A stretch of DNA of 54,322 bases, from positions 1 through 54,322 of IMG/VR virus record IMGVR_UViG_3300020436_002755, one strand, 5' to 3'. The notes beneath the pieces were generated by a model that worked only from the letters and a program-made list of their open reading frames with translations, was not told the DNA's origin and did no database searches. Origin of the DNA: a virus. Both the position numbers and the translations under genes were made by a program. Of this stretch, positions 11,337 through 24,111 are shown piece by piece (position 1 is the stretch's first letter; each line of letters begins with the position of its first letter).

Positions 11337-11797
11337 CACTTGAGAACCCTATAAATGTTCATGAGTTCTTCATCTGGCAAAGGGGTTGCCATTGTGTAAT
11401 ATTTTTGATGACCTATTGTCATGAATGCTTTGAGGTCTGCGAAACTAGGATAAGTTCCTTGGAGCCCAGATATTAAATAATCTGGTTCAAGGTGACATGT
11501 AGAGCATTCATTACCCTTTGCAAACACTCTCGTTGCCGCCTTGTATCTTTCGCTTGTAACTAAGACTGATGTAAGATCTTTCTCAATCCACTCAACCTTC
11601 TCTTCGATACCAGGAATGACTAGAAATAACAAATATACTAGCAATCCTATTGTTATGAAGATAAAGGTTTTAAGACTTTTTACCGCATCAAAAGTATCTT
11701 CTTCAATCTTTTTGACAGGCTCAAATCTAACCTCTCCTCCTTCTGTTTCTATTTCTTGACCAACACCTTCTGGCTCTTTATTTTTTTGCTCAGCCAT
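11336..11797 (-). CDS. Membrane-anchored monohaem c-type cytochrome-like protein
   Basis: The ATG at 11797 follows GGGG at seven bases. Residues 1-42 are acidic and cytoplasmic; 43-63 is one transmembrane helix, placing the C-terminus in the periplasm. There a CSTCH motif (C98, C101, H102) fits covalent haem c attachment, and M126 or M136 could be the distal ligand. Haem attachment would need the host cytochrome c maturation system. The domain is very short (about 60 residues after the motif), so it could also be a stripped relict. It overlaps the amino-acid-binding fusion downstream, suggesting co-expression in the envelope. Confidence 0.6.
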   Translation of the reverse strand: MAEQKNKEPEGVGQEIETEGGEVRFEPVKKIEEDTFDAVKSLKTFIFITIGLLVYLLFLVIPGIEEKVEWIEKDLTSVLVTSERYKAATRVFAKGNECSTCHLEPDYLISGLQGTYPSFADLKAFMTIGHQKYYTMATPLPDEELMNIYRVLK

Positions 11798-11824
11798 CGA
11801 CAAACCCCTTATTCAAAAAATTAT

Positions 11825-12169
11825 TTACTTTTTGCCTACCTCGGATAATTTAGCCGTTATTTGTTGTGAAAACCATTTAAGTACGATTGGAATACTCACA
11901 TTTGAGGTCAGACCAAATAAGAATCCTACAGGATATTTGTAGGAATCATATGCTTGTGCTTGTGGCACGTTATTAAACACTACTAGAATTAAAAGAAATC
12001 CTGAGACTGACATTCCCAGATTGATAAGTAAATCGAAAATTATCATTACAATTTTCCCATCATATTTTTCTTTGTGATCTTGACGGTAGTTAAAAAGAAA
12101 GATCCAAAAAGATGAGAAAAGTATTATTCCAATCATAATTAAATTCATAGAGTTAAATATCTCTTCCAT
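11825..12169 (-). CDS. Small membrane protein, three transmembrane segments
   Basis: Hydrophobic stretches at about residues 8-28, 41-65 and 80-98 and a short basic tail indicate a small polytopic membrane protein. AAAGGTG precedes the ATG. Size and topology fit a 3-TM holin-type protein, but no diagnostic motif is seen. It is the first minus-strand gene left of the only plus-strand unit. The 105-base divergent gap up to 12274 has an isolated TATAAT-like hexamer on the minus strand (12236-12241) without a good -35. Confidence 0.55.
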   Translation of the reverse strand: MEEIFNSMNLIMIGIILFSSFWIFLFNYRQDHKEKYDGKIVMIIFDLLINLGMSVSGFLLILVVFNNVPQAQAYDSYKYPVGFLFGLTSNVSIPIVLKWFSQQITAKLSEVGKK

Positions 12170-12273
12170 ATATCACCTTTGTAATTGTTGTTGAATTTTT
12201 CCGTCCATGGAGAGTTTCGTAATATTTATTTACTTATTATATATCCTTCACGGATTTCTGAAATTCGTAAAGT

Positions 12274-12281
12274 TATAAATA
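12274..12281 (+). promoter_or_regulatory. T4-type late promoter, exact TATAAATA, plus strand
   Basis: A perfect TATAAATA lies 25 bases before the ATG of the asparagine-synthetase-like gene, with a GGAAAGGA ribosome-binding site (12293-12300) between. It is the only exact plus-strand late promoter I found and starts the only plus-strand unit in the window. Confidence 0.75.
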
Positions 12282-12306
12282 CAAAAGAAATTGGAAAGGA
12301 CAAATA

Positions 12307-13188
12307 ATGACATCGTTGATTGACCCTCATGATTTCACCGCAGTAACCTCAAAACTCAGACAATTCTTTCAAGACAAAAATTTCGTAGAAGTTCATACGC
12401 AAAATCGTTTATCGATTCTTGCCGCCTGTGAAGATCCTACTACTGTCACTACGTATGAGTATGGAGGTACTATATGGCCACTACCTCAAACAGGACAAAT
12501 GTGGCTTGAATATGAACTTCTAACAAGACCTGATATCAACGGTTGTTTCTGTGTAAGTACAAGTTACAGACAAGAACCCAATCCAGTTGCAGGCAGACAC
12601 GAATTAATCTTCCCAATGTTTGAATTTGAGATGCCTGGCACGTTTGATGATATGCTCAAAATGGAAGATGAACTATGCACATATTTAGGATTTAAATGCG
12701 ACCATGAAAGAGCCCGATTAACGGATCACTTTCCTGGTGGCAACTATTTAAGTATGTGCGGTAAATATACTGCTTCTGATAACACTCTCACCAATAAACA
12801 TGAAGCAGATATGTATAATGAGTATGGAGACGTATTTTTCCTCACACACTTTCCCTATCACACTTCACCATTTTGGAATATGAAAAAATCACCTGTTAAG
12901 GGTTCAACAGGCAATGACGTTGCATATAAATGTGACGTTATTATTGGCGGAATGGAAACGATTGGTAGTGCAGAGAGAGCAGATGATGTCGATGAAATGA
13001 GAGAACAATTTCACACTATTTCGGATGGCGGATATGCTGATTTGCTTTATAATTTGTTTGGAAAAGAGAGAGTTCTCAAAGAATTGGACGAGTTTCTAGC
13101 ACATGATTTCATGCCTCGTTTTGGTGGGGGTATTGGTGTAACTCGTATGATTAGTGGTATGAAAAAAGCGGGATTACTTGTTGATTGA
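12307..13188 (+). CDS. AsnRS-like catalytic core / archaeal-type asparagine synthetase A
   Basis: A 293-residue class II aminoacyl-tRNA-synthetase core. Motif 2 is at STSYRQEPNP (R88-E90), followed by HELIFPMFEFEMPG; motif 3 is FGGGIGVTRM (273-281, R280). VFFLTHFPYHTSPFW parallels the active-site strand of AsnRS/AspRS. The anticodon-binding OB domain is absent. A lone AsnRS-like core of this size matches archaeal asparagine synthetase A paralogs (about 294 residues), which make Asn from Asp, ATP and ammonia. An enzyme charging an unusual RNA is the alternative, because a tRNA-like element follows 57 bases downstream on the same strand. Confidence 0.75.
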   Translation: MTSLIDPHDFTAVTSKLRQFFQDKNFVEVHTQNRLSILAACEDPTTVTTYEYGGTIWPLPQTGQMWLEYELLTRPDINGCFCVSTSYRQEPNPVAGRHELIFPMFEFEMPGTFDDMLKMEDELCTYLGFKCDHERARLTDHFPGGNYLSMCGKYTASDNTLTNKHEADMYNEYGDVFFLTHFPYHTSPFWNMKKSPVKGSTGNDVAYKCDVIIGGMETIGSAERADDVDEMREQFHTISDGGYADLLYNLFGKERVLKELDEFLAHDFMPRFGGGIGVTRMISGMKKAGLLVD

Positions 13189-13245
13189 AGTAGTAATTCT
13201 ATTGAATCTTTATGTTGCCTATTTGATTATAATGAACTAACACAC

Positions 13246-13342
13246 TCTGGGGTGGCGAAAAAAGAGAGTTCAACTCTCGTGGCAAACGCATTCCGTTGTT
13301 GGCGGTCATAATCTGAAGGTTCGAATCCTTCCCCCAGAGCCA
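13246..13342 (+). tRNA. Unusual tRNA-like RNA, candidate tRNA-Asn(GUU) with D-loop hairpin insert
   Basis: The ends are canonical: a perfect 7-bp acceptor stem (TCTGGGG 13246-13252 with CCCCAGA 13332-13338), discriminator G and encoded CCA (13340-13342), and a perfect T arm (GAAGG, TTCGAAT, CCTTC at 13315-13331). A 3-bp D stem (GCG 13255-13257, CGC 13287-13289) encloses an oversized D loop containing a hairpin GAGAG-TTCAA-CTCTC (13264-13278). The anticodon arm is irregular: CCG/CGG around a 7-base loop reading GTT (Asn), extendable by A-U pairs past a 4-base bulge, with G at position 37. A discriminator G suits tRNA-Asn. A weak TATAAT is at 13228-13233. Confidence 0.6.
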
Positions 13343-13351
13343 GACAAAGAA

Positions 13352-13759
13352 CTATTTATAAGGCATTTGAAATAAAGCATTGATCCAAGTTTGTGGTTTA
13401 TTTCTTGCAAACACAACCCAACCAAAATAATTTGGTTTTCTATTTCTAAAATACTGTTCAGTAAATTCCTCAAACGAACCACCTGTAGTCAAAACATCGT
13501 CACAAATGAGATATGGGTCTTCATCGTGATTACCAGTGGCATATTCATTTAAGTGTCTGCCTAGTTCAACACCACCTCTTGGTATGCCTATGGCGGCACA
13601 AAATGGTCGTGTCTCATGCTCCATAATCATTCTTGCAATACACTTCCATTCATTAGGAAATATTGCATCACATTCAATCTTCCAGTGTAATTCACCACCA
13701 GAATGACCTATAAAGTCTTCTTCAACAAATAAATAATTTTCTCTTACATGAAAACTCAT
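13352..13759 (-). CDS. Phosphoribosyltransferase, orotate-PRTase-like, short
   Basis: The PRPP-binding loop YLICDDVLTTGGSF (around residues 83-96) is a clear type I phosphoribosyltransferase motif. IGIPRGGVELG earlier provides the pyrophosphate loop. At 135 residues it is much shorter than PyrE (about 210). It directly follows pyrF with an ATGA-type overlap, suggesting orotate to OMP, then OMP to UMP, but another nucleobase cannot be excluded. It is the last gene of the long minus-strand operon and ends 9 bases from the tRNA-like RNA transcribed toward it. Confidence 0.7.
   Translation of the reverse strand: MSFHVRENYLFVEEDFIGHSGGELHWKIECDAIFPNEWKCIARMIMEHETRPFCAAIGIPRGGVELGRHLNEYATGNHDEDPYLICDDVLTTGGSFEEFTEQYFRNRKPNYFGWVVFARNKPQTWINALFQMPYK
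13353..13360 (-). promoter_or_regulatory. Late-promoter-like TATAAATA at the end of the PRTase gene
   Basis: An exact minus-strand TATAAATA overlaps the last codons of the PRTase gene. If active, it would transcribe antisense through the tRNA-like RNA and the synthetase-like gene, or add a late start for 11825-12169. Position inside a coding end makes chance occurrence plausible. Confidence 0.35.
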
Positions 13760-14406
13760 AAACTTCCTTTTATCTTCACTAAAACTTCATTAGGGTTTTC
13801 TGCTTCTGTTACAGTTCTACCTAGAATTATCGTACTCGCACCCTCATCTTTTGCTTGTTTAGGTGTTCCTGTACGTGCTTGACCAGACGTTTCTTTCTCA
13901 AATACTATACCAGGACAGATGTAACGAAATGCACTTGGTCCAGTAAAATCAAGTGATTTGATTGTTCTTAAATCTGTCACAGGACATACGAGGTCTTGAA
14001 AATTATTATTTCTAAGTTTAGCCATACATTGTGACCAGACATTATATGATATGTCTCTCAGTATTCCACGTTCTGCTTCAGGACTCCATGATGTAAGTGA
14101 TACGACACCAACTAACTTTATTTGATCTGATATTTTTTTAAGTCTCTCAAATACCTCGTGACTATTATGAGCATTGATAGACACCATTGTGCCGCCACGA
14201 TCTATGACTTTTTTGACAACTGTTTCAACTGTATTAGGTGTGTCCCATAACTTAAAATCAACAAACAATTCTTTCTTCCAACTATCTGGCCATGCTACAA
14301 TCTCATCCCATAGTAGATGATTTATTTTAAAACCATCAACATAGTCTTTGATTCTCTCTGCAAGTTCTAATGATTTTTTTGTCTCAAGTGATACGAGTAT
14401 TTTCAT
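13756..14406 (-). CDS. pyrF: Orotidine 5'-phosphate decarboxylase
   Basis: A complete 216-residue OMP decarboxylase. The catalytic D-x-K-x-x-D is in FVDFKLWDTPNT (D50, K52, D55), and the C-terminal phosphate-binding region reads QARTGTPKQA with the following ILGRTVTEA. It converts OMP to UMP, the last step of pyrimidine synthesis. The start overlaps the stop of a 29-codon frame upstream and its stop overlaps the PRTase start, so the pair works as orotate to UMP if the PRTase is PyrE-like. PRPP synthetase lies two genes upstream. Confidence 0.85.
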   Translation of the reverse strand: MKILVSLETKKSLELAERIKDYVDGFKINHLLWDEIVAWPDSWKKELFVDFKLWDTPNTVETVVKKVIDRGGTMVSINAHNSHEVFERLKKISDQIKLVGVVSLTSWSPEAERGILRDISYNVWSQCMAKLRNNNFQDLVCPVTDLRTIKSLDFTGPSAFRYICPGIVFEKETSGQARTGTPKQAKDEGASTIILGRTVTEAENPNEVLVKIKGSL

Positions 14407-14492
14407 AACATTCCATAACTATCCCACGTTGCGATTATGTAATAAGTGCCGTAGATGCACAATGAATGAAACAGAAACATTGTAAGTGTCAT
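14403..14492 (-). CDS. Small membrane peptide, 29 aa, coupled at both ends
   Basis: The ATG (14492-14490) overlaps the SGNH-gene TGA as ATGA and the TGA (14405-14403) overlaps the pyrF start as ATGA. The 29 residues form one hydrophobic, aromatic-rich segment beginning MTLTMFLFHSLCIYGTYYII, likely one membrane helix. The double overlap is the main reason to think it is translated. It could only serve to carry ribosomes to pyrF. Function unknown. Confidence 0.4.
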   Translation of the reverse strand: MTLTMFLFHSLCIYGTYYIIATWDSYGML

Positions 14493-15226
14493 TGATATAT
14501 GTACCTAAATTCATTATCTGTTCTCGGTTCGAAAATCTCTGATCTTTTACCACCATAAAAATAATTTGCAATTATATTATACATGATCTCATGATCTTCT
14601 TTATAAAAATGATTTTTACATTTGACAGGAGTATTTCCATAATCTCTACCGTATGCTGATAAAGTATTTGAATACAGTTTAAATTGATCATCGTTGAGTT
14701 CTGTTAGTTTAAATATGTATTCATCATTTTTACATGATTCGAGTGTTACCGTATTTAAATCAACGGTAAAACAAACAAAAACAATAATTTTTACATTATG
14801 TAGCATTGAAATGCATTTGAGTGTCATGATATTTTTATAATTTAAATGATATAATTCATCACTCATAAAATTATAAAACGACTTTGTTTGTTTTTTGTAT
14901 TGAAAAAAATATCTATAAAGAGAATTACCAATTAATGCAAACTCACCAAACTCTTTAGCATGACTCTGTTCCTCTAGAAAGTCAAAATTTAATCTAAATG
15001 GATTAGATAATAAAAAAACTATTTTTGCATGTTCGTCATTGCAAATGTCATTATGATTTTTCCAAAATAACTTAAAATGATCGATTGGACCAATCGCTCC
15101 AATACAATAATTATTTACCTTTTCATGTTTAGTCAATAGAGAATACCAACAATCTGTGTTAGCAACTACATCATCATGAGGTGACTGTCTTGGATCACCG
15201 TAACTATCACCAAATATGTAAATCAT
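14489..15226 (-). CDS. SGNH/GDSL hydrolase-like protein
   Basis: The N-terminus MIYIFGDSYGDP carries the block I G-D-S motif with the nucleophile serine at residue 8. The C-terminal HFYKEDHEIMYN segment could supply the catalytic Asp-x-x-His region. Interior blocks are less clear, including NYCIGAIG for block II. These enzymes cut esters of lipids, sugars or nucleotides. There is no signal peptide, so a cytosolic substrate is likely. It overlaps prs upstream by four bases, placing it in the nucleotide operon. A virion-associated sugar esterase is the alternative. Confidence 0.6.
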   Translation of the reverse strand: MIYIFGDSYGDPRQSPHDDVVANTDCWYSLLTKHEKVNNYCIGAIGPIDHFKLFWKNHNDICNDEHAKIVFLLSNPFRLNFDFLEEQSHAKEFGEFALIGNSLYRYFFQYKKQTKSFYNFMSDELYHLNYKNIMTLKCISMLHNVKIIVFVCFTVDLNTVTLESCKNDEYIFKLTELNDDQFKLYSNTLSAYGRDYGNTPVKCKNHFYKEDHEIMYNIIANYFYGGKRSEIFEPRTDNEFRYIYQ

Positions 15227-16149
15227 TCGAATAAAACTGATATAGATTCGTCATGATGCACTCTACGAATTGCTTCTGCAAATAGTTTGCTTACAGATAA
15301 AACTTTGATTTTCTTATTATCATATTGAGGTATAGAATCAGTGATGGTCAGCCCACCCATGCTCGATTCGTTGATCGTTTTCATCCCTCCGTTGCTTAAT
15401 ACGCCATGTGTTATATACGCTTGCACTTCTTCCGCTCCATTTTTCAAAAGAGCATCGGCGGCTTTGACTAATGTTCCACCTGTATCCACTATATCGTCTG
15501 CTATTATGCATTGTTTTCCTTTGACGTTTCCGATTACGTTCATTGCTTCACTTTCATTCGCTTTATCTCTGCGTTTGTCAATGATAGCAATGTCCAGATT
15601 GAGTTCTTTTGCAATAGATCTTGCTCTTGGAACACCACCTGCATCAGGTGATACAATCAATGCATTTCCATTACTCACCATTGGTCGTTTCATTAAATCT
15701 TTGGCGAACAAAGGTTTAGACCTCAAGTCATCTACAGGAATATTAAAGAATCCTTGTATCTGACCAGCATGTAAATCCATAGTCATTACTCTGTCAGCAC
15801 CAGATATCTGAATCATATCTGCTACTAATTTTGCGGAAATTGGTGTTCTAGCGGCGGGTTTTCTATCTTGTCTAGCGTAACCATAATAAGGCATGATAGC
15901 CGTAATACGACCTGCACTTGCTCTTTTACATGCATCAATGAGAATCAACAATTCCATGAGATTGTCATTTGCAGGATTACAAGTGCTTTGTATAATGAAA
16001 ACATCCTCACCACGTATGTTTTGACTGATTTCGCAAAATATTTCCCCATCTGCGAATCTTTGTAGTCTTCTTTCTGTGAGGGCAATGCCTGCATGGTTAG
16101 AAATATGATTTGCAAGCAGTTTATTAGAATTACCAGATAATAAAATCAT
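15223..16149 (-). CDS. prs: Ribose-phosphate pyrophosphokinase (PRPP synthetase)
   Basis: Full length (308 residues) and close to class I bacterial enzymes. It has the ATP-binding RxxxxR region around QRFADGEIFCEI, the ATP/ribose part MPYYGYARQDRKPAAR, the Mg-binding MTMDLHAGQIQGFF, and the PRPP loop CIIADDIVDTGGTLV. It makes PRPP from ribose 5-phosphate and ATP, the substrate of both phosphoribosyltransferases in this operon and the entry to UMP synthesis. It starts directly at the end of the oxygenase gene upstream. A phage copy would lift PRPP supply for genome replication. Confidence 0.92.
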   Translation of the reverse strand: MILLSGNSNKLLANHISNHAGIALTERRLQRFADGEIFCEISQNIRGEDVFIIQSTCNPANDNLMELLILIDACKRASAGRITAIMPYYGYARQDRKPAARTPISAKLVADMIQISGADRVMTMDLHAGQIQGFFNIPVDDLRSKPLFAKDLMKRPMVSNGNALIVSPDAGGVPRARSIAKELNLDIAIIDKRRDKANESEAMNVIGNVKGKQCIIADDIVDTGGTLVKAADALLKNGAEEVQAYITHGVLSNGGMKTINESSMGGLTITDSIPQYDNKKIKVLSVSKLFAEAIRRVHHDESISVLFE

Positions 16150-17025
16150 TTAATAACTCTGTTGTAATCTCCATAGTAGGTACTCATATGAAGATATTGG
16201 TTCATATTTATCAGGTTCTTTTGTTAAATTTTTGACAATCGTATCTTTGTTTGGACCGACAAAGTACGGCATAGAATATCTTGATTGATCAAGAACATTC
16301 ATCACTCTATGAGGTGTAGAAACGTATCTATCATTTGTCCATCTCTGAAACATGTCAGCAATATTCACTACTACGCTATTTTCTATTACTGGCACTTCAA
16401 TCCACTCACCATCAATGGTTTTGACAAATAGACCACCACAATCTTGAAAACGAAATAGCATAGTGAATGTATCATAATCTGTATGCTCATTACCTCTCAT
16501 TTGTTTGTCTTCTACAGGACCTTCATACTTTGGATAGTGTATTATTCTCGCAGTAGTCGTACCGTAAAGATGTTTTTCAACAAGATATCCATATGGTAAT
16601 CCTAATGCAAACTCAAATCTTTCTAAAAACTTGAAAGACAAATAACGCATTATACGTTCAATCTTCTCTGCTTGTGTGCGAAACAATGTTATCTCAGTAG
16701 GCCAGTATTTGTCATCCATATCATACGGAGCCTTCCAGTTGTATGCTTCTTTGAGATCACCAGGTCTGTCTGGATGTAACCATTCAGACTCCATCTCAGA
16801 ATAACCTAAGTTCTGTTGAACACCTGAATATTTGTATTTGTTTTTAACTTCTAAAGGTAGGTCAAAAAACTCTTTGATGAGATGTTCCCATACTATAAAG
16901 TCAGTTGTATATTGTTCATATACATTTGTGACAATAGCGAAACCTATTTCTTTAAATGCCGTATCTAACTTGCGAGATACGGCAATATCCATTTCACTAA
17001 AATCAATTATCGGTATTTTGGTCAT
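16150..17025 (-). CDS. 2-oxoglutarate/Fe(II) oxygenase, isopenicillin-N-synthase-like
   Basis: A 291-residue member of the DIOX_N/2OG-FeII_Oxy group. Iron ligands are visible as H181 and D183 in NEHTDYD and H239 in STPHRVM. R249 and S251 in RYSMPYF bind 2-oxoglutarate. The N-terminal IPIIDFSE start is typical. Fungal thymine 7-hydroxylase belongs to this same group, so a pyrimidine substrate fits the surrounding PRPP, PRTase, OMP decarboxylase and transporter genes. This link is inference, since many other substrates are known. It lies between prs and the propeller protein, overlapping the latter by ATGA. Confidence 0.8.
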   Translation of the reverse strand: MTKIPIIDFSEMDIAVSRKLDTAFKEIGFAIVTNVYEQYTTDFIVWEHLIKEFFDLPLEVKNKYKYSGVQQNLGYSEMESEWLHPDRPGDLKEAYNWKAPYDMDDKYWPTEITLFRTQAEKIERIMRYLSFKFLERFEFALGLPYGYLVEKHLYGTTTARIIHYPKYEGPVEDKQMRGNEHTDYDTFTMLFRFQDCGGLFVKTIDGEWIEVPVIENSVVVNIADMFQRWTNDRYVSTPHRVMNVLDQSRYSMPYFVGPNKDTIVKNLTKEPDKYEPISSYEYLLWRLQQSY

Positions 17026-18053
17026 ACTGCTTCAGGATAGCGGTGTGCCTTAAAGCACGAATTATGTTTGCCAGTAATAAACTTATTTAGAGGTTCAGGA
17101 TATTCTGCAAAGTCAGGTATTACATACTCCCATACTGTCTCACCTTCTGGTGTTACCTCAAAGATTCTGCCAAATGCACTTTCACATATCATCGTATTAT
17201 CATTCCACAATCTCTGTACGCTACCCATGTATGGTGAGAAAAATGCTGGTGGCATCTCATCAGCATACGACCATACTAATTCTTTAGTCTTTATATCATA
17301 TTCTACGATACGTGAATGATGTATAGATGATGGACGAATGTTACCATTATCAAAACAGATTAGCGTTCCGTCAGGTGTGATAGATGGGTCATGTTGTTGT
17401 GCTACAAGAGGATACTTCAACTCCCACTCTATGCTCTTCGTTTCTTTATTGACTGCAATGATACCAGATGTTGTTCGCAAACTTAAATATACTAATTTAC
17501 CATGCTGATACACACCATTTATCATCGGCCAATGATCATCATTAAAACACTCATGTATCGGCCAGTCTTCTTGTTTTAGATGCTCCCATGCTCTCCATTC
17601 CCATACGACTTCACCTTTACGATTTACTTCTCGCACAATATCTGATTGTTTGTCCCACTTTCTTACTGGTACATCTGCGGCGGCCGCATATAAGATGTGA
17701 CCATTTGGTAGCCATTGTGCATCATGGTGATGATACATGTCTTCATATTCCCAGACAACATCACCACCTGGTGTCACTTCCATAAAATGACCACCATGCC
17801 AGATATCCCAAGCAGGATACAGGTGTGCAGATCGTTCATTACTTCCATTGTATCCGAGATTACCATGGTTAAGAATGACTGCATCTCTGCCTGGGCGAAT
17901 CGGTAGATTCCATTCGTGTTCAACATCACCATGCATGTTGATCAACACTACACGACCATTTCCTGTCTGCGGTGCAAAGAGTGTAAAACCTCCTGCACTC
18001 TTCTCTTCGTTGTAATATGTTACATCTAATTTTCTTCGTTCAATTGTTGTCAT
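17022..18053 (-). CDS. Arylsulfotransferase-like beta-propeller protein
   Basis: The 343-residue sequence repeats blades of the type GEVVWEWRAW, GETVWEYVIP and KELVWSYADE, each with a Trp-Glu strand end, as in the ASST family of six-bladed propellers. His-rich loops (YHHHDAQWLPNGH and IHHSRIVEYD) could hold the active-site His of bacterial arylsulfotransferase. Classical ASST is periplasmic, but no signal peptide is present here, so a cytosolic propeller with another function is possible. The gene overlaps the permease and oxygenase genes on either side. Confidence 0.6.
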   Translation of the reverse strand: MTTIERRKLDVTYYNEEKSAGGFTLFAPQTGNGRVVLINMHGDVEHEWNLPIRPGRDAVILNHGNLGYNGSNERSAHLYPAWDIWHGGHFMEVTPGGDVVWEYEDMYHHHDAQWLPNGHILYAAAADVPVRKWDKQSDIVREVNRKGEVVWEWRAWEHLKQEDWPIHECFNDDHWPMINGVYQHGKLVYLSLRTTSGIIAVNKETKSIEWELKYPLVAQQHDPSITPDGTLICFDNGNIRPSSIHHSRIVEYDIKTKELVWSYADEMPPAFFSPYMGSVQRLWNDNTMICESAFGRIFEVTPEGETVWEYVIPDFAEYPEPLNKFITGKHNSCFKAHRYPEAV

Positions 18054-18811
18054 ATCATTGCACTTTCATGCCACTTTCGCATTAATAAATGTCCGATTGT
18101 TGATACTGTCATGAAGAATAGAAACCCTAACGTGGTTGCTGACAATATCAAAGCCATAACTAATGGTGTCTCTAACTCTGCTTGTGCGTATATAATTTGC
18201 ACACCAAGCCCACCATCTTCACTACCCGAACCTATTATAAACTCACCAACGATTGCACCTATGACTGATAGCCCTGCTGATATTCTCATACCTGCTATGA
18301 TATTAGGTATGGCGGCAGGGAATCTCAACTTAAAGAATGATACCATCTTTGATGCTTTATGCATATCAAATAACTCTACAAGATTTATAGATGTAGATTT
18401 GAGCCCTAGTAATGTATTGTTGATGATAGGAAATAAAGATATAATCAAACTAATTATGATGACTGATCTCTCCTCAAACCCAAACCATAATACAATTAAT
18501 GGAGCAACTGCAACTACTGGTACGGTTTGTAATAGAATAGCATAAGGATATAGACTACGCTCAAGCATTTTAGATAGACTCATAGTTGTCGCTACTAAAA
18601 TACCTATTGTGATTGCAAGAAGATATCCTATTAATGCTTCTCTAAAAGTAATAATAGCACCTTGAAGTATAATTGTAAAGTCATTTATGAATGCTTTTGC
18701 AACTGTCATCGGCCCTGGCAAAAGAAAAACTAAATCATATATTTTTGCACCGACTGACCAGACTGCAAGAAATAAAACGAGAACAAGTATTGGTGGCAAT
18801 ATATTTTTCAT
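18050..18811 (-). CDS. ABC transporter permease, NitT/TauT (SsuC/ThiX) type
   Basis: A 253-residue inner-membrane protein with about six hydrophobic helices and the BPD_transp_1 coupling (EAA-type) loop near LFDMHKASKMVSFFKLRFP followed by AAIPNIIAGMRIS. Its relatives form homodimers with SsuB/TauB-type ATPases and NMT1-type binding proteins, importing sulfonates, taurine, nitrate or pyrimidine precursors. The matching ATPase (19143-19859) and binding protein (19866-20801) are in the same operon, so a complete importer is encoded. The substrate cannot be read from the permease. Confidence 0.85.
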   Translation of the reverse strand: MKNILPPILVLVLFLAVWSVGAKIYDLVFLLPGPMTVAKAFINDFTIILQGAIITFREALIGYLLAITIGILVATTMSLSKMLERSLYPYAILLQTVPVVAVAPLIVLWFGFEERSVIIISLIISLFPIINNTLLGLKSTSINLVELFDMHKASKMVSFFKLRFPAAIPNIIAGMRISAGLSVIGAIVGEFIIGSGSEDGGLGVQIIYAQAELETPLVMALILSATTLGFLFFMTVSTIGHLLMRKWHESAMI

Positions 18812-19152
18812 TGTACTCCACCAATAAAGACTTGAAAATTATTTCCATATGAAATCACACAATATGATTCATATGTTGGATGATATTCAATAATAGTATA
18901 AGTTCCTGATTCAGGATTTACATACATGTCAATTGAGACTACTACTGGTTTTTTTGCAAGTCCTGTTTCATTTCTTACTTTTGTAAATTGATTAGCCTTA
19001 AAAATTAAATCTTCTTTTTTATCTCTAATTGCTCTGAATGTCTCTTGTTCGTCTGCACATATTATTGGTTTGTCATTCCATTCACCTGCTGATACACAAA
19101 CTGTTGCGAATAAACACAATATAACAGAGAATATTTTTTTTGTTATTTCCAT
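18808..19152 (-). CDS. Small secreted protein, 114 aa
   Basis: Residues 1-22 form a signal peptide ending near VCVSAGE. The mature part has two cysteines (C31 near PIICADEQ and C98 near ESYCVIS) that could form a disulfide. Small periplasmic proteins of this shape are common in marine phages, with no known role. It is wedged between the ATPase and permease genes with overlaps on both sides, so it may be a transporter accessory subunit. Confidence 0.55.
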   Translation of the reverse strand: MEITKKIFSVILCLFATVCVSAGEWNDKPIICADEQETFRAIRDKKEDLIFKANQFTKVRNETGLAKKPVVVSIDMYVNPESGTYTIIEYHPTYESYCVISYGNNFQVFIGGVQ

Positions 19153-19859
19153 GTTCTCAACTTTCCAGATATGTCATTGACTATCTTAGTGAATGTTGCT
19201 TTTGATCGTAATGATTGATTTCTTTTCTTGAATGGTATATCAACGACATGCGTAATCTCACCTGGTCGTGGCGACATTACAATCACTTTATTGGAAAGAT
19301 ACACGGCTTCTGCTACATTGTGTGTCACTAATATAGCGGTAAATTTGTCTTGATTCCAGAGTTCGTGTATTTCTTCTTGTAGAACTTCTCTTGTGAGTTC
19401 ATCTACTGCGGATAGGGGTTCGTCAAGAAGCAGAAAGTCAGGTTTAAGCACCAATGATCTCGCTAATGAAAGTCTCATCTTCATGCCACCAGATAGTTGA
19501 TGAGGATAACTTTTCTCAAATCCAGTTAGCCCGACTTGCTCTAATGCTTTTTCTGCTCTGATTTGACGTTCTATTTTGTCAATCTTCTCTAATTCCATGA
19601 GAAGTTCAACATTCTTCTGCACTGTTCTCCATGGAAGCAATGCAGAATCTTGAAAGACAAAGGCACCGCTTGTGTCTTGTTTATTCACGATGCCCTCTGA
19701 AGGAGTCACTAAACCTGCAATTATTCTCAATAATGTAGATTTACCACAACCTGAAGGTCCAACAATAGTTACAAATTCACCCTTGCTAATACTAAAATCA
19801 ATCTTTGATAGAGCATGAACATCATCAAAGTGTTTAGTGACTCCTTGTATGTCAATCAT
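19143..19859 (-). CDS. ABC transporter ATPase, SsuB/TauB/ThiZ type
   Basis: A complete 238-residue ATPase: Walker A GPSGCGKST (34-42), Q-loop VFQDSALLPW (the ALLPW form typical of nitrate/taurine/sulfonate importers), signature LSGGMKMRLSLAR, Walker B FLLLDEP, D-loop LSAVDE and switch His in VTHNVAEA. It hydrolyses ATP to power the adjacent permease. It lies seven bases after the NMT1-type binding-protein gene and overlaps the small secreted-protein gene. Confidence 0.9.
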   Translation of the reverse strand: MIDIQGVTKHFDDVHALSKIDFSISKGEFVTIVGPSGCGKSTLLRIIAGLVTPSEGIVNKQDTSGAFVFQDSALLPWRTVQKNVELLMELEKIDKIERQIRAEKALEQVGLTGFEKSYPHQLSGGMKMRLSLARSLVLKPDFLLLDEPLSAVDELTREVLQEEIHELWNQDKFTAILVTHNVAEAVYLSNKVIVMSPRPGEITHVVDIPFKKRNQSLRSKATFTKIVNDISGKLRTWK

Positions 19860-19865
19860 GATATA

Positions 19866-20801
19866 TTACTTGAAACAACCCTTCTTAAATGAGGTATCAT
19901 ATGACGAATGTGGATCAAAATCAGCAGGCAATACATTCACCTCTTTCATTTGATTTGCAAGTTCTACCCATCTATTAGGATCTTGACAACCAATCTTACT
20001 CCAGTCTTTAGGAAGAAAATCTCTCTTCATAAGTTCCAAAGCATTATTATGAATTTCAGCATTCACTTTCTTACTCTTTGAGAGAATAAAATCTCTTGTT
20101 GGTTTTGGATCAATAAGAGATTTAGGAAATGAAATGCTCAACCTATCAACTACTGCCTGTACGAGTTCAGGATTTTCTTTGATAAGTTTATCAGTTGTGA
20201 ATAATACACTATATGGTCTGTATCCAAGACTCTCTACAGTAATTTGTTCATTAGCAACACCTTTCGCATCAAGTCTTGCTGGCAGAAAAAGTGAATAACC
20301 TTGCTGAAATTGTTGTGGAGTTCTTGCGAACAATCCAAGATCACCAGTTAAAGGAAATTCTTTTACTGCATTCAACTGATATGTGTGTTTCACCCACTTC
20401 CAATATGTCACACCCATCTTAACTGCAAATGGTCTCCCATCAAGATCTTTAACAGAATTGACACCTGTGTTTGGATGAAATACAAGAGTGTAAGGTACAT
20501 GATTAAGACTCACAAAAATACCTTTGAGCCCTGCACCTTTTGCATTAGCCAACATCACACTATCGGATGCTTGTAGTCCAAACTCAACTGAACCAGCCGC
20601 CACTTGTGCGGTTGTATTGACTTTAGGACCACCTGATTTGATTACGATTTTCACATCGTCATGATACTCATTATCGAACTGGGCTTGCCAGTATCCACTC
20701 TGATTTCCTTGTGGAAACCAGTCCATGAGTAAAGTTACTTCTTTTGCATAAGAAGCACCAGCCAAAAGAATGACTGAAAATAACGCAATTAATTTTTTCA
20801 T
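19866..20801 (-). CDS. NMT1/THI5-like periplasmic binding protein (ABC importer)
   Basis: Residues 1-19 are a signal peptide (MKKLIALFSVILLAGASYA). The mature start TLLMDWFPQGNQSGYW has the NMT1/SsuA fold beginning seen in ThiY, which binds thiamine pyrimidine precursors, and in sulfonate binders. GSVEFGLQASDSV and LVFHPNTGVNSVKDL follow as expected. At 311 residues it is normal length. It supplies substrate to the permease and ATPase next to it. Gene context with PRPP, PRTase and OMP decarboxylase genes points to a nucleobase or pyrimidine-like ligand, by inference. Confidence 0.82.
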   Translation of the reverse strand: MKKLIALFSVILLAGASYAKEVTLLMDWFPQGNQSGYWQAQFDNEYHDDVKIVIKSGGPKVNTTAQVAAGSVEFGLQASDSVMLANAKGAGLKGIFVSLNHVPYTLVFHPNTGVNSVKDLDGRPFAVKMGVTYWKWVKHTYQLNAVKEFPLTGDLGLFARTPQQFQQGYSLFLPARLDAKGVANEQITVESLGYRPYSVLFTTDKLIKENPELVQAVVDRLSISFPKSLIDPKPTRDFILSKSKKVNAEIHNNALELMKRDFLPKDWSKIGCQDPNRWVELANQMKEVNVLPADFDPHSSYDTSFKKGCFK

Positions 20802-20809
20802 TACAACTC

Positions 20810-21880
20810 CTATTTAACAGGGAAAGGTGATGTTACACCCTTCACAAAAAATTGCATGGTTTCTAATTCAGGTCTCTTAATCACACCAGCAGGAATTTTA
20901 CCTCCATCCTGTTGTGTTACTCCTTCTGAAAAAGGATACCATGTATCAAGTTCATCGTTGATCCAATTCATTTTTACTGTCTCAACTTTATTCACAACTT
21001 CACCAGGTACATTTTTACCCCACGGTGATAGACCAACACAATTCTTCTCAATACCCCAATTCCATCTCTGACCTGTAGTAAGTTTTCCTTGACTATAAAG
21101 ATCAGCAATGTGCTTGTACAATACATTCCAATTAAACATCATACCTGTAATGTAACTATTAGGACCGAACTGTCCCATTGGTGCATCATTACCCATGCTC
21201 CATACACCATCAGTTTTCTCTGCAAGAGTAACTACAGATGGCGAATCAGTTGTGGTAAAGAGAATGTCATTACCCTGATCTACAAGAACTTTGGCGGCTT
21301 CCATATCTTTGGGTGGATCAAACCATGAGTTAATCCACACGATCTCAACTTCAATGTCAGGATTTACAGATTGAGCACCAATAGTTAATGCGTTGATGTT
21401 ACGAATAATCTCTGGAATTGGGTGCGAACCTACAACACCAATCTTATTCGTCTTCGTCATCATACCGGCGGCAATACCTGTTAGATAACGTGCTTGAAAG
21501 GAATGACAAACATAATTATCAAGATTCTTGTCATTACCTTTGTACCCTGTGGCATGTAAGAAGAATGTCTTCTTATTTTTTTCAGCGGCCCTTACCATAG
21601 GCTCCATGAATCCAAATGATGTACCGAAAACAATATCATGTTTTCTTGCGAGTTTCTTGAAAACTCTTTCACTATCTGCTTCAGGAACAGACTCTACACC
21701 CTCAACTTTATAACCATGTTTTTCTAGAGAGTGAAACCCTTGATGATGTCTCATCGACCAACCTCCATCATTTGATGGACCTACAAGAACAAATCCGATT
21801 GAAACATCTTTTGCATAGGCATAGCCTAGCATAGTCGTACTCAGGACGAGTACGCTGAGGAACGATACCAACTTATTCAT
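20810..21880 (-). CDS. BMP/PnrA-family periplasmic binding protein
   Basis: The ATG at 21880 is chosen because GGAAGGAG precedes it and it opens a signal peptide (MNKLVSFLSVLVLSTTMLGY). The mature protein follows the BMP (basic membrane protein, Med/PnrA) fold: SIGFVLVGPSNDGGWSMRHH near the start, DIVFGTSFGFMEPM, GIAAGMMTKTNKIGVVG and ILFTTTDSPSV. Characterised relatives bind purine nucleosides or nucleobases. Their usual permease type is not encoded here, so it may use a host transporter or share the nearby one. It lies eight bases before the NMT1-like gene. Confidence 0.82.
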   Translation of the reverse strand: MNKLVSFLSVLVLSTTMLGYAYAKDVSIGFVLVGPSNDGGWSMRHHQGFHSLEKHGYKVEGVESVPEADSERVFKKLARKHDIVFGTSFGFMEPMVRAAEKNKKTFFLHATGYKGNDKNLDNYVCHSFQARYLTGIAAGMMTKTNKIGVVGSHPIPEIIRNINALTIGAQSVNPDIEVEIVWINSWFDPPKDMEAAKVLVDQGNDILFTTTDSPSVVTLAEKTDGVWSMGNDAPMGQFGPNSYITGMMFNWNVLYKHIADLYSQGKLTTGQRWNWGIEKNCVGLSPWGKNVPGEVVNKVETVKMNWINDELDTWYPFSEGVTQQDGGKIPAGVIKRPELETMQFFVKGVTSPFPVK

Positions 21881-21901
21881 ATTCTCCTTCCGAGAAAGCA
21901 A

Positions 21902-21927
21902 AGCGGTAAGTCTTCCACCTCACCGCT
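21902..21927 (-). other. Stem-loop between BMP gene and membrane-protein gene
   Basis: AGCGGT and ACCGCT arms (6 bp) flank a 14-base loop, just upstream of the BMP ribosome-binding site; TTTGCTTT follows on the minus strand. The loop is too long and the tail too mixed for a confident terminator. It could be a weak terminator, processing site or leader structure. Confidence 0.3.
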
Positions 21928-21939
21928 AATAATTAATAA

Positions 21940-22167
21940 TTAGGCACTTGGTTTAGAATAAATGCCCCACAATACCCAAACGGCAACTAATCCAACGAGT
22001 CCTTCGCTTCCGAGTTGCTTCACGATTCCTACTACAGAACCCACTACATCAAGACCAATAAATGGTACGGCGGCTCCGAATAGGATTTGTAGCACCACTC
22101 CGAGTGCTATAAGTGCTAAACCGATTTCTGTGATGGACCTGATCCATCCAAGAATTTTATCTATCAT
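21940..22167 (-). CDS. Small membrane protein, two TM segments, 75 aa
   Basis: Hydrophobic segments at about residues 13-36 and 50-70 with an amphipathic N-terminus (MIDKILGWIRSITEIG) mark a small membrane protein. The Gly/Val-rich repeats (GLDVVGSVVGIV and GSEGLVGLVAVWVL) resemble short proteins of T4-like marine phages with no assigned role. Position between a PRTase and the binding proteins suggests a transport accessory or unrelated envelope role. Confidence 0.6.
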   Translation of the reverse strand: MIDKILGWIRSITEIGLALIALGVVLQILFGAAVPFIGLDVVGSVVGIVKQLGSEGLVGLVAVWVLWGIYSKPSA

Positions 22168-22179
22168 TTTTTCTCCTTG

Positions 22180-22653
22180 TTAAACTGGCGAATTCCACCA
22201 ACCCTCCCACGGAAACATAATCCAAGTGTCAGTAGAATCCTTTGCCATTTCATTGACATAATATGTTGGCTCAAAGTCACATTCATTGTTCCACCATAGA
22301 CTCGCAAATCTCACATCAACTGGCAACTCCAGTGGTGAATTTTTGCGAGGACCTTTAATGAAACCTTGCATTCTTTGAAATGTTTCTCCCGAGTCACATA
22401 TATCATCAACAATTAAAACCCTTTCATCGGTGGGTTTCGGCAAATAGTCTTCCCATTCAGGAAAATCTCTTAATGACGATTTAACAGGTTTAAACGGTTT
22501 CTTGAACCAATGAGATAACATAACACCAGGGGTAAGACCACCTCTGGATAATCCAACAATCACATTTGGGTCGAATTTGTCAAGAACAATGTCTCTTGCA
22601 AGTACATTTACATCCCTTCTCATTTCTTCCCAACTATACCATAATTTATTCAT
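22180..22653 (-). CDS. Purine-type phosphoribosyltransferase (Gpt/HPRT-like)
   Basis: The PRPP loop RVLIVDDICDSGETF (around 78-92) and the early VIVGLSRGGLTPGVMLS loop define a type I PRTase. The late segment DTWIMFPWEGWW matches the W-x-x-F-P-W-E end of xanthine/guanine/hypoxanthine PRTases, in which aromatic residues stack on the purine. At 157 residues it is Gpt-sized. It would turn an imported purine base and PRPP into the nucleotide. It is the first recognisable enzyme of the import/salvage operon. Confidence 0.8.
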   Translation of the reverse strand: MNKLWYSWEEMRRDVNVLARDIVLDKFDPNVIVGLSRGGLTPGVMLSHWFKKPFKPVKSSLRDFPEWEDYLPKPTDERVLIVDDICDSGETFQRMQGFIKGPRKNSPLELPVDVRFASLWWNNECDFEPTYYVNEMAKDSTDTWIMFPWEGWWNSPV

Positions 22654-22661
22654 GATAATCC

Positions 22662-23030
22662 TTAATCGACTTGTATATCTCTCGTTATATCTTTAATTTT
22701 TTCGATTTGTTTTGTAATGATTTCGTCACGTTTAGGCCAGTAAATATAATCTTTATCTGGATTTTTCATCAAATTATACAATAGAGGTAAAATAAGTTTC
22801 TCTACTTTAAGCATATCTTCCACATACTTTTCTTCAAGATACTCTTTTTTGTAATTGATTTCGTTGATAGCGGAATCTATCTTTTTTTCTAGATTGGAGA
22901 GTGATTCTGATTTTGCTTCGACTTCTACAATTTTCTTTTCGACCTCAGTCGTTTTTGCTTTGTATTCTTCATCATCTACCGCAGAAAAACCAAAATCAAA
23001 ATCTGCGTATTCTTCAGGTATTGTTGCCAT
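22662..23030 (-). CDS. Coiled-coil hypothetical protein, 122 aa
   Basis: MATIPEEYADFDFGFSAVDD begins an acidic start, followed by a long Lys/Glu heptad region (about 22-75) and a C-terminal MKNPDKDYIYWPKRDE segment. This layout is familiar from T4-like marine phages, where it has no known function. The gene overlaps the RuvC-like gene upstream by 17 bases. Confidence 0.6.
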   Translation of the reverse strand: MATIPEEYADFDFGFSAVDDEEYKAKTTEVEKKIVEVEAKSESLSNLEKKIDSAINEINYKKEYLEEKYVEDMLKVEKLILPLLYNLMKNPDKDYIYWPKRDEIITKQIEKIKDITRDIQVD

Positions 23031-23586
23031 AGGCGTGTCCGTACTTTGCTATGTAATAACTATCAACTATGTCTGTGATAGGATTATTTAGTTTAATGTT
23101 AAATTCGTCTAATAGGTTTCTATTAGTCTCATCAGTGAATGCATCATACATTTTTTCTTTGTTAGCATTACCTTTGGTTGTAGCGTATTTTTTAATAACG
23201 GTGGGTGCAATCATCTCGTATTTGATTCCCCATTTTGTGAGTGTGTCTTTGAGTATTGCCATATTCTCTGCTATGTGAAATACTCTACCAGTGGCGGCAT
23301 ATGCGTAGTCTTCTATATATGCTTTCGGTCTTTCTGGGCTTATTGCCGTAATGGAACAGTCAATCACCCAGTTTGCAAGACCGTGATACCTCTGCAAATC
23401 AGTTTCCCAAGCAGGATATATGTCAGTTTTTACGCTCCGAATCTCGGCCCATTTTGATCGTTGTCGTTCATTACTCGCCAAACAAAAATGAGTACAAGAA
23501 CCAAAACTATAATTCCACTTATCGTTTCCATTGTATAATGTTATTGCAGGACTGGTTAGTGAATAATCAATCCCAATTATCTTCAT
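23014..23586 (-). CDS. RuvC-like Holliday-junction resolvase / RNase H-fold nuclease
   Basis: The RNase H-like fold shows GIDYSLTSPAITLY at residues 4-17 (first catalytic Asp), YIEDYAYAATGRVFHIAE (second acid) and a C-terminal ITDIVDSYYIAKYG (last acidic site). The PTVIKKYATTKGNANKEKM segment parallels RuvC's K-x-x-x-T-G-x-G-x-A-x-K DNA-binding part. It would cut branched recombination DNA before packaging, the job of endonuclease VII in T4. Length (190) is close to RuvC. It overlaps both neighbours. Confidence 0.75.
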   Translation of the reverse strand: MKIIGIDYSLTSPAITLYNGNDKWNYSFGSCTHFCLASNERQRSKWAEIRSVKTDIYPAWETDLQRYHGLANWVIDCSITAISPERPKAYIEDYAYAATGRVFHIAENMAILKDTLTKWGIKYEMIAPTVIKKYATTKGNANKEKMYDAFTDETNRNLLDEFNIKLNNPITDIVDSYYIAKYGHAYGNNT

Positions 23587-23713
23587 CTTCTTCTGGTGTT
23601 TCTACGTAGGCACCGCAAAAAGGACAGTGTGATGGCGTTCTATGACTGGTCCATGTAACTATGTAATGCTCACCACACTCTATGCAATCGAAATCCTTTT
23701 CAATCTCGTTCAT
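23567..23713 (-). CDS. Zinc-ribbon small protein, 48 aa
   Basis: The ATG at 23713 overlaps the end of the 23700-23945 gene, and the stop lies inside the RuvC-like gene start. The frame has CIECGEHYIVTW and HCPFCGAYV, two C-x-x-C knuckles about 20 residues apart as in zinc ribbons, then an acidic tail. GGAGAAA lies about 9 bases upstream of the ATG. It fills an otherwise empty stretch, and the cysteine pattern supports it being real. It may be a nucleic-acid- or protein-binding adaptor. Confidence 0.6.
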   Translation of the reverse strand: MNEIEKDFDCIECGEHYIVTWTSHRTPSHCPFCGAYVETPEEDEDNWD

Positions 23714-23945
23714 TTGCAGGTTTCTCCAACTCCCTGTATCTTCTTAATAAGTGATAACAATGTTTAAGTCCGTCAGAATAACATTTAAGTCGTTCTGGCA
23801 TGACCAAGTGATTAAGGTCTGGTTTAGGGTTTCTTCTTACTTTTTCTCGTAAGTTAGAAACCCTTTTCATTTCATCTTCAACTTCATCCATGATCTCCGC
23901 TAGGAGATTATCCGCATAGTGTTCTGGAACCATTGACATATCCAT
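23700..23945 (-). CDS. Hypothetical charged helical protein, about 80 aa
   Basis: In-frame ATGs exist at 23945, 23939 and 23933, all overlapping the gene upstream, and none has a strong ribosome-binding site. The product is highly charged and helical with a conserved-looking MPERLKCYSDGLKHCYHLLR segment. No domain recognised. Part of the small-gene run before the ribonucleotide reductase. Confidence 0.5.
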   Translation of the reverse strand: MDMSMVPEHYADNLLAEIMDEVEDEMKRVSNLREKVRRNPKPDLNHLVMPERLKCYSDGLKHCYHLLRRYRELEKPANERD

Positions 23946-24111
23946 CGTATTCAGCCTTATAATGATGTAATTTTTCTCGCAATTCTTTTATCTTCATTGC
24001 ATTATATAGATGTGATGGTACCACAAGTTCTTCTGTGAGTAAATCTTCATAATATTTGATAGTCTGATGCAATTCATCTTTCTCAGTCAATGCATCTGAC
24101 AATACTCGCAT
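23908..24111 (-). CDS. Hypothetical protein, 67 aa
   Basis: MRVLSDALTEKDELHQTIKY starts a helical protein with a LxxKxxxLREKLHHY-type amphipathic helix. The ATG lies at the stop of the ribonucleotide reductase gene (overlap at 24111), so it is probably translated after it. Function unknown. Confidence 0.5.
   Translation of the reverse strand: MRVLSDALTEKDELHQTIKYYEDLLTEELVVPSHLYNAMKIKELREKLHHYKAEYDGYVNGSRTLCG

Follow-up and report, generated by a model that had tools for sequence, protein, structure and literature searches.

It is generally assumed that phages draw their nucleotides chiefly from degraded host DNA and from synthesis. Cyanophages encode PstS, a periplasmic phosphate-binding protein that relies on host permeases. 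According to the available parts of two virome studies, the pathways most enriched in viruses in marine viromes include those for purines and pyrimidines (pyrE and rpiB are discussed), and viromes from aphotic waters have an excess of ABC-transporter and nucleotide KEGG orthology groups, a pattern read as uptake plus synthesis (PMC4022391; PMC5504273). Here we describe a run of genes at positions 13352-22653 of IMG/VR virus record IMGVR_UViG_3300020436_002755 (the window: the whole stretch of DNA analysed, 54,322 bases, G+C 35.6%) that, judging from its gene families and their order, is probably a phage cassette for capturing nucleobases and charging them with phosphoribosyl pyrophosphate (PRPP). 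The cassette is real, recurrent and conserved across viral contigs, and it is apparently undescribed; capture of purine bases and their charging with PRPP would be the best-supported part of this reading. That phages help with uptake and nucleotide supply is, in general terms, already in print; the operon, as far as we found in sources seen in part, is not. A first-pass annotation of this DNA had suggested that an operon joining an importer to salvage might be undescribed, and a literature search, mostly at the level of titles and abstract openings and hence a weak absence, found no phage operon of a BMP or NMT1 importer with phosphoribosyltransferases (PRTases); the accessible parts of pelagimyophage and methylophage papers (PMC7029224, PMC9004378) contain no such cassette.

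The run consists of 13 intact, tightly packed open reading frames (ORFs), all on the minus strand. Read along that strand, they encode a predicted purine-type PRTase (PRT1), a 75-residue hydrophobic protein (tm75), a BMP-family binding protein, an NMT1-type binding protein, an ABC ATPase, a 114-residue protein (orf114), an ABC permease, an ASST-family propeller protein, a 2-oxoglutarate (2OG)-Fe(II) oxygenase, PRPP synthetase (Prs), a 245-residue protein, orotidine monophosphate (OMP) decarboxylase (PyrF) and a short PRTase-like protein (PRT2). Measured from the low-coordinate end, successive genes are separated by -4, 82, -4, 0, -4, -4, -4, -10, 6, 8, 38 and 12 nt, such that 7 of the 12 junctions overlap or abut and 3 further ones are no longer than 12 nt; the near-continuous minus-strand run that the first-pass annotation had described is confirmed. 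Nine of its 11 gene labels were confirmed by Pfam or NCBIfam, the exceptions being an SGNH hydrolase and a PyrE-like PRTase; its list had left out two small ORFs (21940-22167 and 18808-19152), and the RNR, ThyX and dUTPase that it reported are indeed encoded in the window. We rejected the possibility that the window is host DNA mis-called as virus, given its T4-type DNA polymerase (phrog_262; best identity 53%, to Synechococcus phages), UvsX-like recombinase, DnaB-like helicase, phage translation repressor and endolysin; an Hsp20 is encoded as well.

An artefact confined to a single contig was also rejected, because the gene order recurs on many others. Scans of IMG/VR returned 219 BMP relatives (the BMP locus counts below refer to the best 80 of these 219), 9 PyrF loci, 27 NMT1 loci (28 by profile) and 19 ASST loci (29 by profile). 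The order NMT1-ATPase-permease-ASST is found on 21 of the 21 related loci long enough to show all four genes, so that the order is not unique to this contig. Across the 27 NMT1 loci (20 clusters) the ATPase is present in 25 of 25 readable cases, the permease in 21 of 21, ASST in 21 of 21 and a 2OG gene in 14 of 18, and BMP or PRT1 lies upstream in 16 of 22. At 47 of the 62 loci with enough upstream sequence, PRT1 is found no more than 1.2 kb upstream of BMP; downstream, the 60 readable loci divide into 35 with a 2OG gene inside 2.5 kb, 9 with the NMT1 importer, 6 with PRT2, 5 with a gp43-like match only and 5 with no query gene. Clustering at 95% leaves 44 BMP clusters, with PRT1 upstream in 26 of 36 and, downstream in 33, 2OG (18), NMT1 (5), PRT2 (2), a pair formed by a 377-residue protein and PRT3 (2) or none of these (6). 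These counts give a core order of PRT1-(tm75)-BMP-NMT1-ATPase-permease-ASST-2OG, with Prs, PyrF and PRT2 as a less constant tail. The importer is often missing where BMP is present, and BMP is sometimes missing where the importer is present. The cassette itself lies at varying places, near RNR or between a gp43-like polymerase and UvsX, and the same slot is filled by BMPs of different lineages and by Prs of two types.

The BMP/PnrA-family periplasmic binding protein (20810-21901; PF02608, 158.8 bits against a cut-off of 24.1), whose true start homologues suggest to be the ATG at 21880, is a predicted purine-base binder, an assignment that is well supported. The best solved relatives of its family profile are Brucella 3s99, in which adenine was modelled, and AtzT (6pi5, with guanine), which binds guanine with a dissociation constant of 110 nM and adenine with one of 2.5 uM, as given in the part of the AtzT report open to us (PMC6834077). 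The guanine contacts S97, F98, E165 and W194 listed there are S95, F96, E164 and W193 in the window protein; the stacking Y45 becomes W48, N220 becomes D219 (as in adenine-bound 3s99) and N218 becomes T, the sole position that differs in kind. Six of the seven pocket positions are in this way identical, conservative (Y to W) or 3s99-like. Eight bacterial BMP loci were fetched from near the top of a list of 509 plasmid records with a match, and seven of them are annotated (L141 is not). Three of the seven have purine-catabolic neighbours (xdhABC and NCS2 in L139; xdhABC, guaD, 8-oxoguanine deaminase and puuD in L140; allantoicase, HpxO and a nucleoside deaminase in L149), one has triazine genes (L148), and three have neither, their purine context not being clear (L150-L152).

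All seven annotated bacterial loci have two permease genes beside or near BMP. Seven BMP-type permease queries found none (E 1e-3) in any of 128 phage sources (127 loci, some sharing a contig, plus the window), and two BMP-type ATPase queries gave weak matches in 11 and 44 sources, the best of which (25-27% identity) fall on the ATPase gene of the NMT1 system. The importer of the first-pass annotation is hence one complete system plus one orphan binding protein. Because no BMP-type permease was found at the phage loci, BMP probably docks on a host permease of this type, by analogy with cyanophage PstS. A single clade of phage BMPs was rejected (approximately unbiased test, p-AU 0.0106), and in a tree with several unsettled branches and flagged long branches one phage group adjoins Paroceanicella, where the gene lies in a xanthine operon.

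PRT1 (22180-22653, 157 aa; PF00156, 45.7 bits) is, on profile and model evidence, a well-supported candidate for a purine PRTase of the GpT/XGPRT type: its profile search is led by 1vdm and the GpT-1 and GpT-2 purine PRTases, a structure model of moderate confidence (predicted local distance difference test, pLDDT, 71.8) returns the same families in Foldseek, and it carries the PRPP loop DDICDSGET, although it reaches no NCBIfam purine-PRTase cut-off (best 37.6 versus 138 bits). Prs (15223-16149; NF002320, 457 bits versus a cut-off of 297), with its motifs present, and PyrF (13756-14406; PF00215, 77.8 bits), with the D-x-K-x-x-D motif, a profile match to 3tr2 (E 1.2e-24) and a score just below the TIGR01740 cut-off (89.4 versus 92.3 bits), are secure assignments by sequence. 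PRT2 (13352-13759), which overlaps pyrF by 4 nt, can be called a PRTase only weakly: it scores 23.8 bits against the PF00156 cut-off of 26.3 and has no NCBIfam match, and its invariant residues are D87, D88, V89, T91, T92 and G93. Its candidacy for orotate is due mainly to repeated pairing with PyrF, from which it lies within 22 nt in 10 of 18 pyrF matches and within 1.7 kb in 5 more (it was not found in the other 3), and the pairing is seen in both PyrF groups (38-39% and 72-93% identity). Synthesis of uridine monophosphate (UMP) depends on a working orotate PRTase, and the proposal that the cassette completes it consequently rests on this candidate.

Related cassettes on other contigs carry further nucleotide genes, with scores above the NCBIfam cut-offs for GMP reductase (511 versus 397 bits) and aspartate carbamoyltransferase (297 versus 237) in L102, PurA, the adenylosuccinate synthase, in L103 (557 versus 402), adenosine deaminase in L040 (440 versus 419), RpiB in L108 (174 versus 139) and APRT-type PRTases in L012 (231 versus 143) and L096 (171.5 versus 170). 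A dihydroorotate-dehydrogenase-like protein in L103 stays well below its cut-off (67 versus 269 bits), and several inserted ORFs matched nothing in the scans. A reading of the L103 PurA as PurZ, indicative of a Z-genome, was rejected (133 bits for PurZ, whose cut-off is 300, as against 556 for PurA). A nucleotide gene lies within 9 kb of NMT1 in 15 of 15 clusters, a count that is ascertained in that the queries were chosen near the cassette. A less biased scan with PF00156 covered 17 whole records (1.29 Mb with the window; picked by length and variety, with the ASST end position as the anchor of G008). It found 31 domains, PRTases and Prs together; 28 of them are no more than 10 kb away from a BMP, NMT1 or ASST anchor, as against 10.6 expected from area.

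The second binding protein, of the NMT1/THI5 type (19866-20801; PF09084, 59.5 bits), is accompanied by its own ATPase (19143-19859; PF00005, 113.4 bits, with Walker A, LSGG and Walker B) and BPD_transp_1 permease (18050-18811; PF00528, 93.8 bits). The complete importer proposed in the first pass therefore stands for NMT1. By sequence profile its best solved relatives are the thiamin-binding protein 4nmy and THI13/THI5, and a Foldseek search places a thiamin binder, Thi5/THI13 and ThiY ahead of TauA/SsuA; it retains, in the alignment, the Trp from the D-W-x-P-x-x-N segment of 4nmy and misses the SsuA_fam cut-off of NCBIfam (46.2 versus 163.5 bits). We lean, from these relatives, towards a pyrimidine-like base as the ligand. 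The same relatives (the thiamin-bound binding protein, Thi5/THI13 and, by fold, ThiY), together with the hydroxymethylpyrimidine (HMP) auxotrophy of SAR11, would also fit an importer for an HMP-like thiamin-pyrimidine precursor that meets a vitamin auxotrophy of the host. We think this quite unlikely: the window has no Rfam match at gathering thresholds and so no thiamin pyrophosphate riboswitch, no thiamin gene was found among the scanned cassette proteins (many ORFs lie outside that scan), and the neighbours are PRTases and nucleotide enzymes.

The ASST-family propeller protein (17022-18053; PF05935, 94.7 bits against a cut-off of 24.2), for which no signal peptide is apparent from sequence, aligns H221 with His436 of Escherichia coli ASST (3elq), which we take to be the catalytic His; 4p04 has N at this place. 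N179 and R193 are invariant over 19 rows, and in a weak part of the alignment the position of what we presume to be E. coli His356 holds no His. Nine bacterial ASST loci were fetched from the 12 best of 41 plasmid records with a match (3 of the same genus and 29 below 29% identity were excluded), and a transporter adjoins ASST in all nine: an NMT1/NrtA-type ABC system in five, an NCS2 uracil-xanthine permease in three and a binding protein of the tripartite tricarboxylate (TTT) type in one. The exchange of an ABC importer for NCS2 beside ASST argues for a nucleobase-like ligand. The importer in Variovorax (L130) is close to that of the phage (NMT1 45%, ATPase 57%, permease 58% identical). In Chloroflexi genomes 33 ASST matches occur in 24 of 294; of the loci inspected, 11 are paralogues at 31-47% identity and a twelfth is at 27%, and no other cassette query gene lies within 3-4 kb of these 12, which is uninformative on the cassette.

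The 2OG-Fe(II) oxygenase (16150-17025; PF03171/PF14226) has thymine dioxygenase 5c3p as its nearest solved relative (E 2.9e-59) and keeps 10 of the 12 residues listed for thymine-7-hydroxylase (T7H) in the accessible part of its report (PMC4787775): H214, D216, H271, R286, S288, Y194, R190, F292, Y217 and N87. E122 is replaced by N and N294 by G. Four bacterial 2OG loci were fetched near the top of a list of 266 plasmid records; their neighbours are BMP transporters and an amidase in L143 and pseudouridine or nucleoside genes in L144 and L145, and a Nostoc locus (L142) is uninformative. Thymine as the substrate is a lead, not a finding, drawn from these residues. Two other, different 2OG-type oxygenases lie between permease and ASST in related cassettes (L012:14494-15246 and L103:12409-13302).

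Taken together, these families suggest the following scheme. BMP would collect purine bases in the periplasm and pass them to a host BMP-type permease, and NMT1, with its own ATPase and permease, would bring in another small molecule, for which a pyrimidine-like base is the likeliest choice; we infer the inward direction of flux. PRT1 would trap the purine bases as nucleoside monophosphates with PRPP made by the phage Prs, PyrF and the short PRT2 may feed UMP, and the 2OG oxygenase and the ASST-like protein may modify a base or base derivative, the monophosphates then passing to the phage RNR, ThyX and dUTPase. The first-pass proposal of import followed by charging survives as a nucleobase-directed cassette that pairs uptake with PRPP charging amid nucleotide genes, on the strength of families, order and pocket residues; its PyrE label is not confirmed.

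Several observations weigh against this scheme. PRT1 has Asn in 15 of 15 alignment rows where 1vdm has the Lys of the base-contact loop (a residue that we take to contact the base in 6-oxopurine PRTases), and its exact base is for that reason uncertain. The PRT2 family profile reaches orotate PRTase only at E 0.021 and over the PRPP-loop region alone, which, with the sub-threshold PF00156 score, leaves the PyrE-like label unconfirmed. The NMT1 structure model is of modest confidence (pLDDT 67.8). Three relatives of the oxygenase that are not T7H share much of the T7H pocket, only N87 being absent from all three, and thymine specificity is weak because relatives without N87 keep much of the rest. 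One 178-kb record (G004) is a counter-example, with BMP present and no PRTase match in the PF00156 scan. Genes of the PEPCK (phosphoenolpyruvate carboxykinase) and isocitrate-lyase families in sister cassettes (L006:18319-19539; L022:14598-15875) fall outside a nucleotide reading, as does an ExbB-like gene in some. Finally, some bacterial ASST loci carry an organosulfur signal: the surroundings of ASST-NMT1 in Variovorax include msuE, three LLM oxidoreductases and acyl-CoA dehydrogenases, those of ASST in Streptomyces (L138) LLM and NtaA/DmoA-type genes with an acyl-CoA dehydrogenase, and those in Salipiger (L133) an arylsulfatase.

These last neighbours argue for an organosulfur ligand, and they fit an account in which the operon joins two modules, BMP-PRT1-2OG-Prs-PyrF serving nucleotides and NMT1-ATPase-permease-ASST scavenging organosulfur for a sulfur-limited host. 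The retention of the ASST His at the place of sulfuryl transfer and the SsuA/TauB/SsuC-type relatives of NMT1, ATPase and permease (all below cut-offs) point the same way, but we consider the account unlikely in view of the NCS2 permease beside ASST at 3 of 9 bacterial loci, the preference of both NMT1 profile and fold for thiamin or HMP binders, and the nucleotide genes close to all 15 NMT1 clusters. That nucleobases are imported mainly as nitrogen or carbon fuel rather than for phage DNA might be read from the catabolic operons that hold some bacterial BMP and 2OG relatives and from the isocitrate lyase and PEPCK in some cassettes; it seems improbable to us, in that the adenosine deaminase of L040 is the only catabolic-looking base enzyme among the scanned cassette proteins and the other enzymes (PRTases, Prs, PyrF, PurA, aspartate carbamoyltransferase) are anabolic. 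We are equally doubtful that the run is a hypervariable island of unrelated metabolic genes whose adjacency has no functional meaning: insertions do differ among phages (PEPCK, isocitrate lyase, ExbB-like) and the cassette sits at different genomic places, but the importer-ASST order is fixed in all 21 cases, different BMP lineages and two Prs types fill the same slot, and PRTases cluster around the anchors well beyond expectation (28 of 31 domains). Capture and charging of nucleobases is the reading that we carry forward.

The survey of cassettes also turned up a polytopic membrane protein of 377 residues (L012:10279-11412), present at 25 loci (20 contigs) at 85-100% identity to the L012 copy and then followed at 23 of the 25 by an APRT-type PRTase (at the other two, L028 and L030, the gene is cut short by the end of the contig). 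Pfam, PHROGs and the PDB gave no relative, and GenBank phages no match; for both relatives in the plasmid collection, from Fusobacterium (41%) and Subdoligranulum (47%) (L153, L154), the very next gene is related to this PRTase (44% and 48%). The protein is, from its context, a candidate for a new nucleobase permease family. Tentatively, marine T4-like phages might run their own modular nucleobase uptake, in which at least three unrelated uptake parts (orphan BMPs of more than one origin, the NMT1 ABC importer with ASST, and the 377-residue protein) swap in one slot, each coupled to PRPP charging; we hold this as possible and no firmer. If it is true, uptake would be pulled by phosphoribosylation, and infected cells would be net nucleobase sinks in the sea.

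Close relatives of the cassette proteins seem so far to be confined to uncultured viruses, to judge from the proteins tried. A tblastn search of 50,697 GenBank phage records matched BMP in 14 (best 34.8%; 10 of them named 'Bacteriophage sp.', 9 of those 10 from human faeces), NMT1 in 2 (21.9%), PyrF in 9 (best 29.9%) and PRT1 in 21 (best 33.8%); PRT2 had no match, so that none of the five has a relative above 35% identity there; the window DNA polymerase has relatives in 2,581 GenBank phage records. The gp23 capsid gene is present on 4 of 14 cassette contigs, all four with BMP and including the three longest (134-178 kb), on 0 of 11 contigs of a second set (G011 is in both sets) and, these contigs being fragments, on 0 of 14 NMT1 contigs over both sets. 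The sole bacterial match of the NMT1 profile, a Chloroflexi metagenome-assembled contig in the GTDB collection (L129, PAAV01000031.1), carries its genes in the phage order (ThyX-RNR-...-PRT1-BMP-NMT1); it probably comes from a phage and was mis-binned.

Co-transcription of the run is plausible from its layout. A terminator-like stem with a T-run (13264-13278, minus strand) directly after PRT2 is likely its 3' end, and a stem-loop with a 9-bp stem and a weak T-tract (21902-21927, minus strand), terminator- or attenuator-like, lies between tm75 and BMP; terminator-like sites in 11500-24500 number 14 versus 5.7 in shuffles, the T4 late-promoter pattern occurs 5 times versus 6.0 expected, and sigma-70 promoter-like sites show no excess (48 seen versus 51.5 expected from shuffles). 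Among the small proteins, tm75 (21940-22167), recurrent between PRT1 and BMP, has a single hydrophobic segment in a simple hydropathy scan and no significant family match in library scans; orf114 (18808-19152), between ATPase and permease, is missing from many relatives and has no family match above cut-off; and the 245-residue protein (14489-15226), first labelled an SGNH hydrolase, matches nothing in Pfam (E<=10) or PHROGs, with a 43% relative in L006.

Beyond the run, a stand-alone class II tRNA-synthetase-like core (12307-13188, plus strand; PF00152, phrog_29758) recurs in many relatives, where it neighbours PRT2 and is encoded on the other strand, its asnA label being unsupported by NCBIfam. 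A second recurrent block (9855-12169, minus strand) comprises a 494-residue family-3 solute-binding protein (PF00497), a 155-residue protein bearing a haem-c-like motif (CSTCH) and a membrane-like 114-residue protein, kept together in L004, L006, L025 and L070. At 6127-6717 (minus strand) lies a member of a phage-encoded Pycsar effector family (PF18967 PycTM, E 1.2e-21), with 56-72% identical relatives in L004, L006/L085 (one contig), L025, L055 and L070.

An import-plus-charging cassette would add a third source of nucleotides, extracellular bases, to host DNA degradation and synthesis, and infected marine bacteria would become a sink for dissolved purines. The reading yields precise and cheap predictions (the ligands of two binding proteins and the substrate of one odd PRTase), and the survey brings up a candidate permease family that is undescribed and also represented in Fusobacterium and Subdoligranulum.

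Set against known systems, the virome enrichments are gene counts, and an operon of binding proteins, importer, PRTases and Prs is not described in the parts of those studies available (PMC4022391; PMC5504273). The fungal T7H (PMC4787775, in part) is the best solved relative of the oxygenase, from which the window protein departs at the two positions given above. Methylophage Melnitz, a marine T4-type phage, has a 2OG-Fe oxygenase gene between recA and dnaB, as in several relatives of the cassette, a likeness of position; the accessible part of its description (PMC9004378) mentions neither a binding protein nor a PRTase. AtzT and Brucella 3s99 belong to the same family as the phage BMP and have most guanine or adenine contact residues in common with it (PMC6834077, in part). 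Bacterial BMP loci have two permeases, and a listed ATPase in 6 of the 7 annotated, whereas the phage loci have no such permease. In the ASST-transporter operons of Variovorax, Alloyangia (L131) and Pantoea (L132), ASST adjoins an NMT1-type importer, as in the phage, or an NCS2 permease, but no PRTase or PRPP synthetase is annotated around it, unlike in the phage. Cyanophage PstS resembles the role proposed for BMP in its use of host permeases; PstS, however, is a single gene for phosphate, whereas here purine bases and a complete second importer would be involved.

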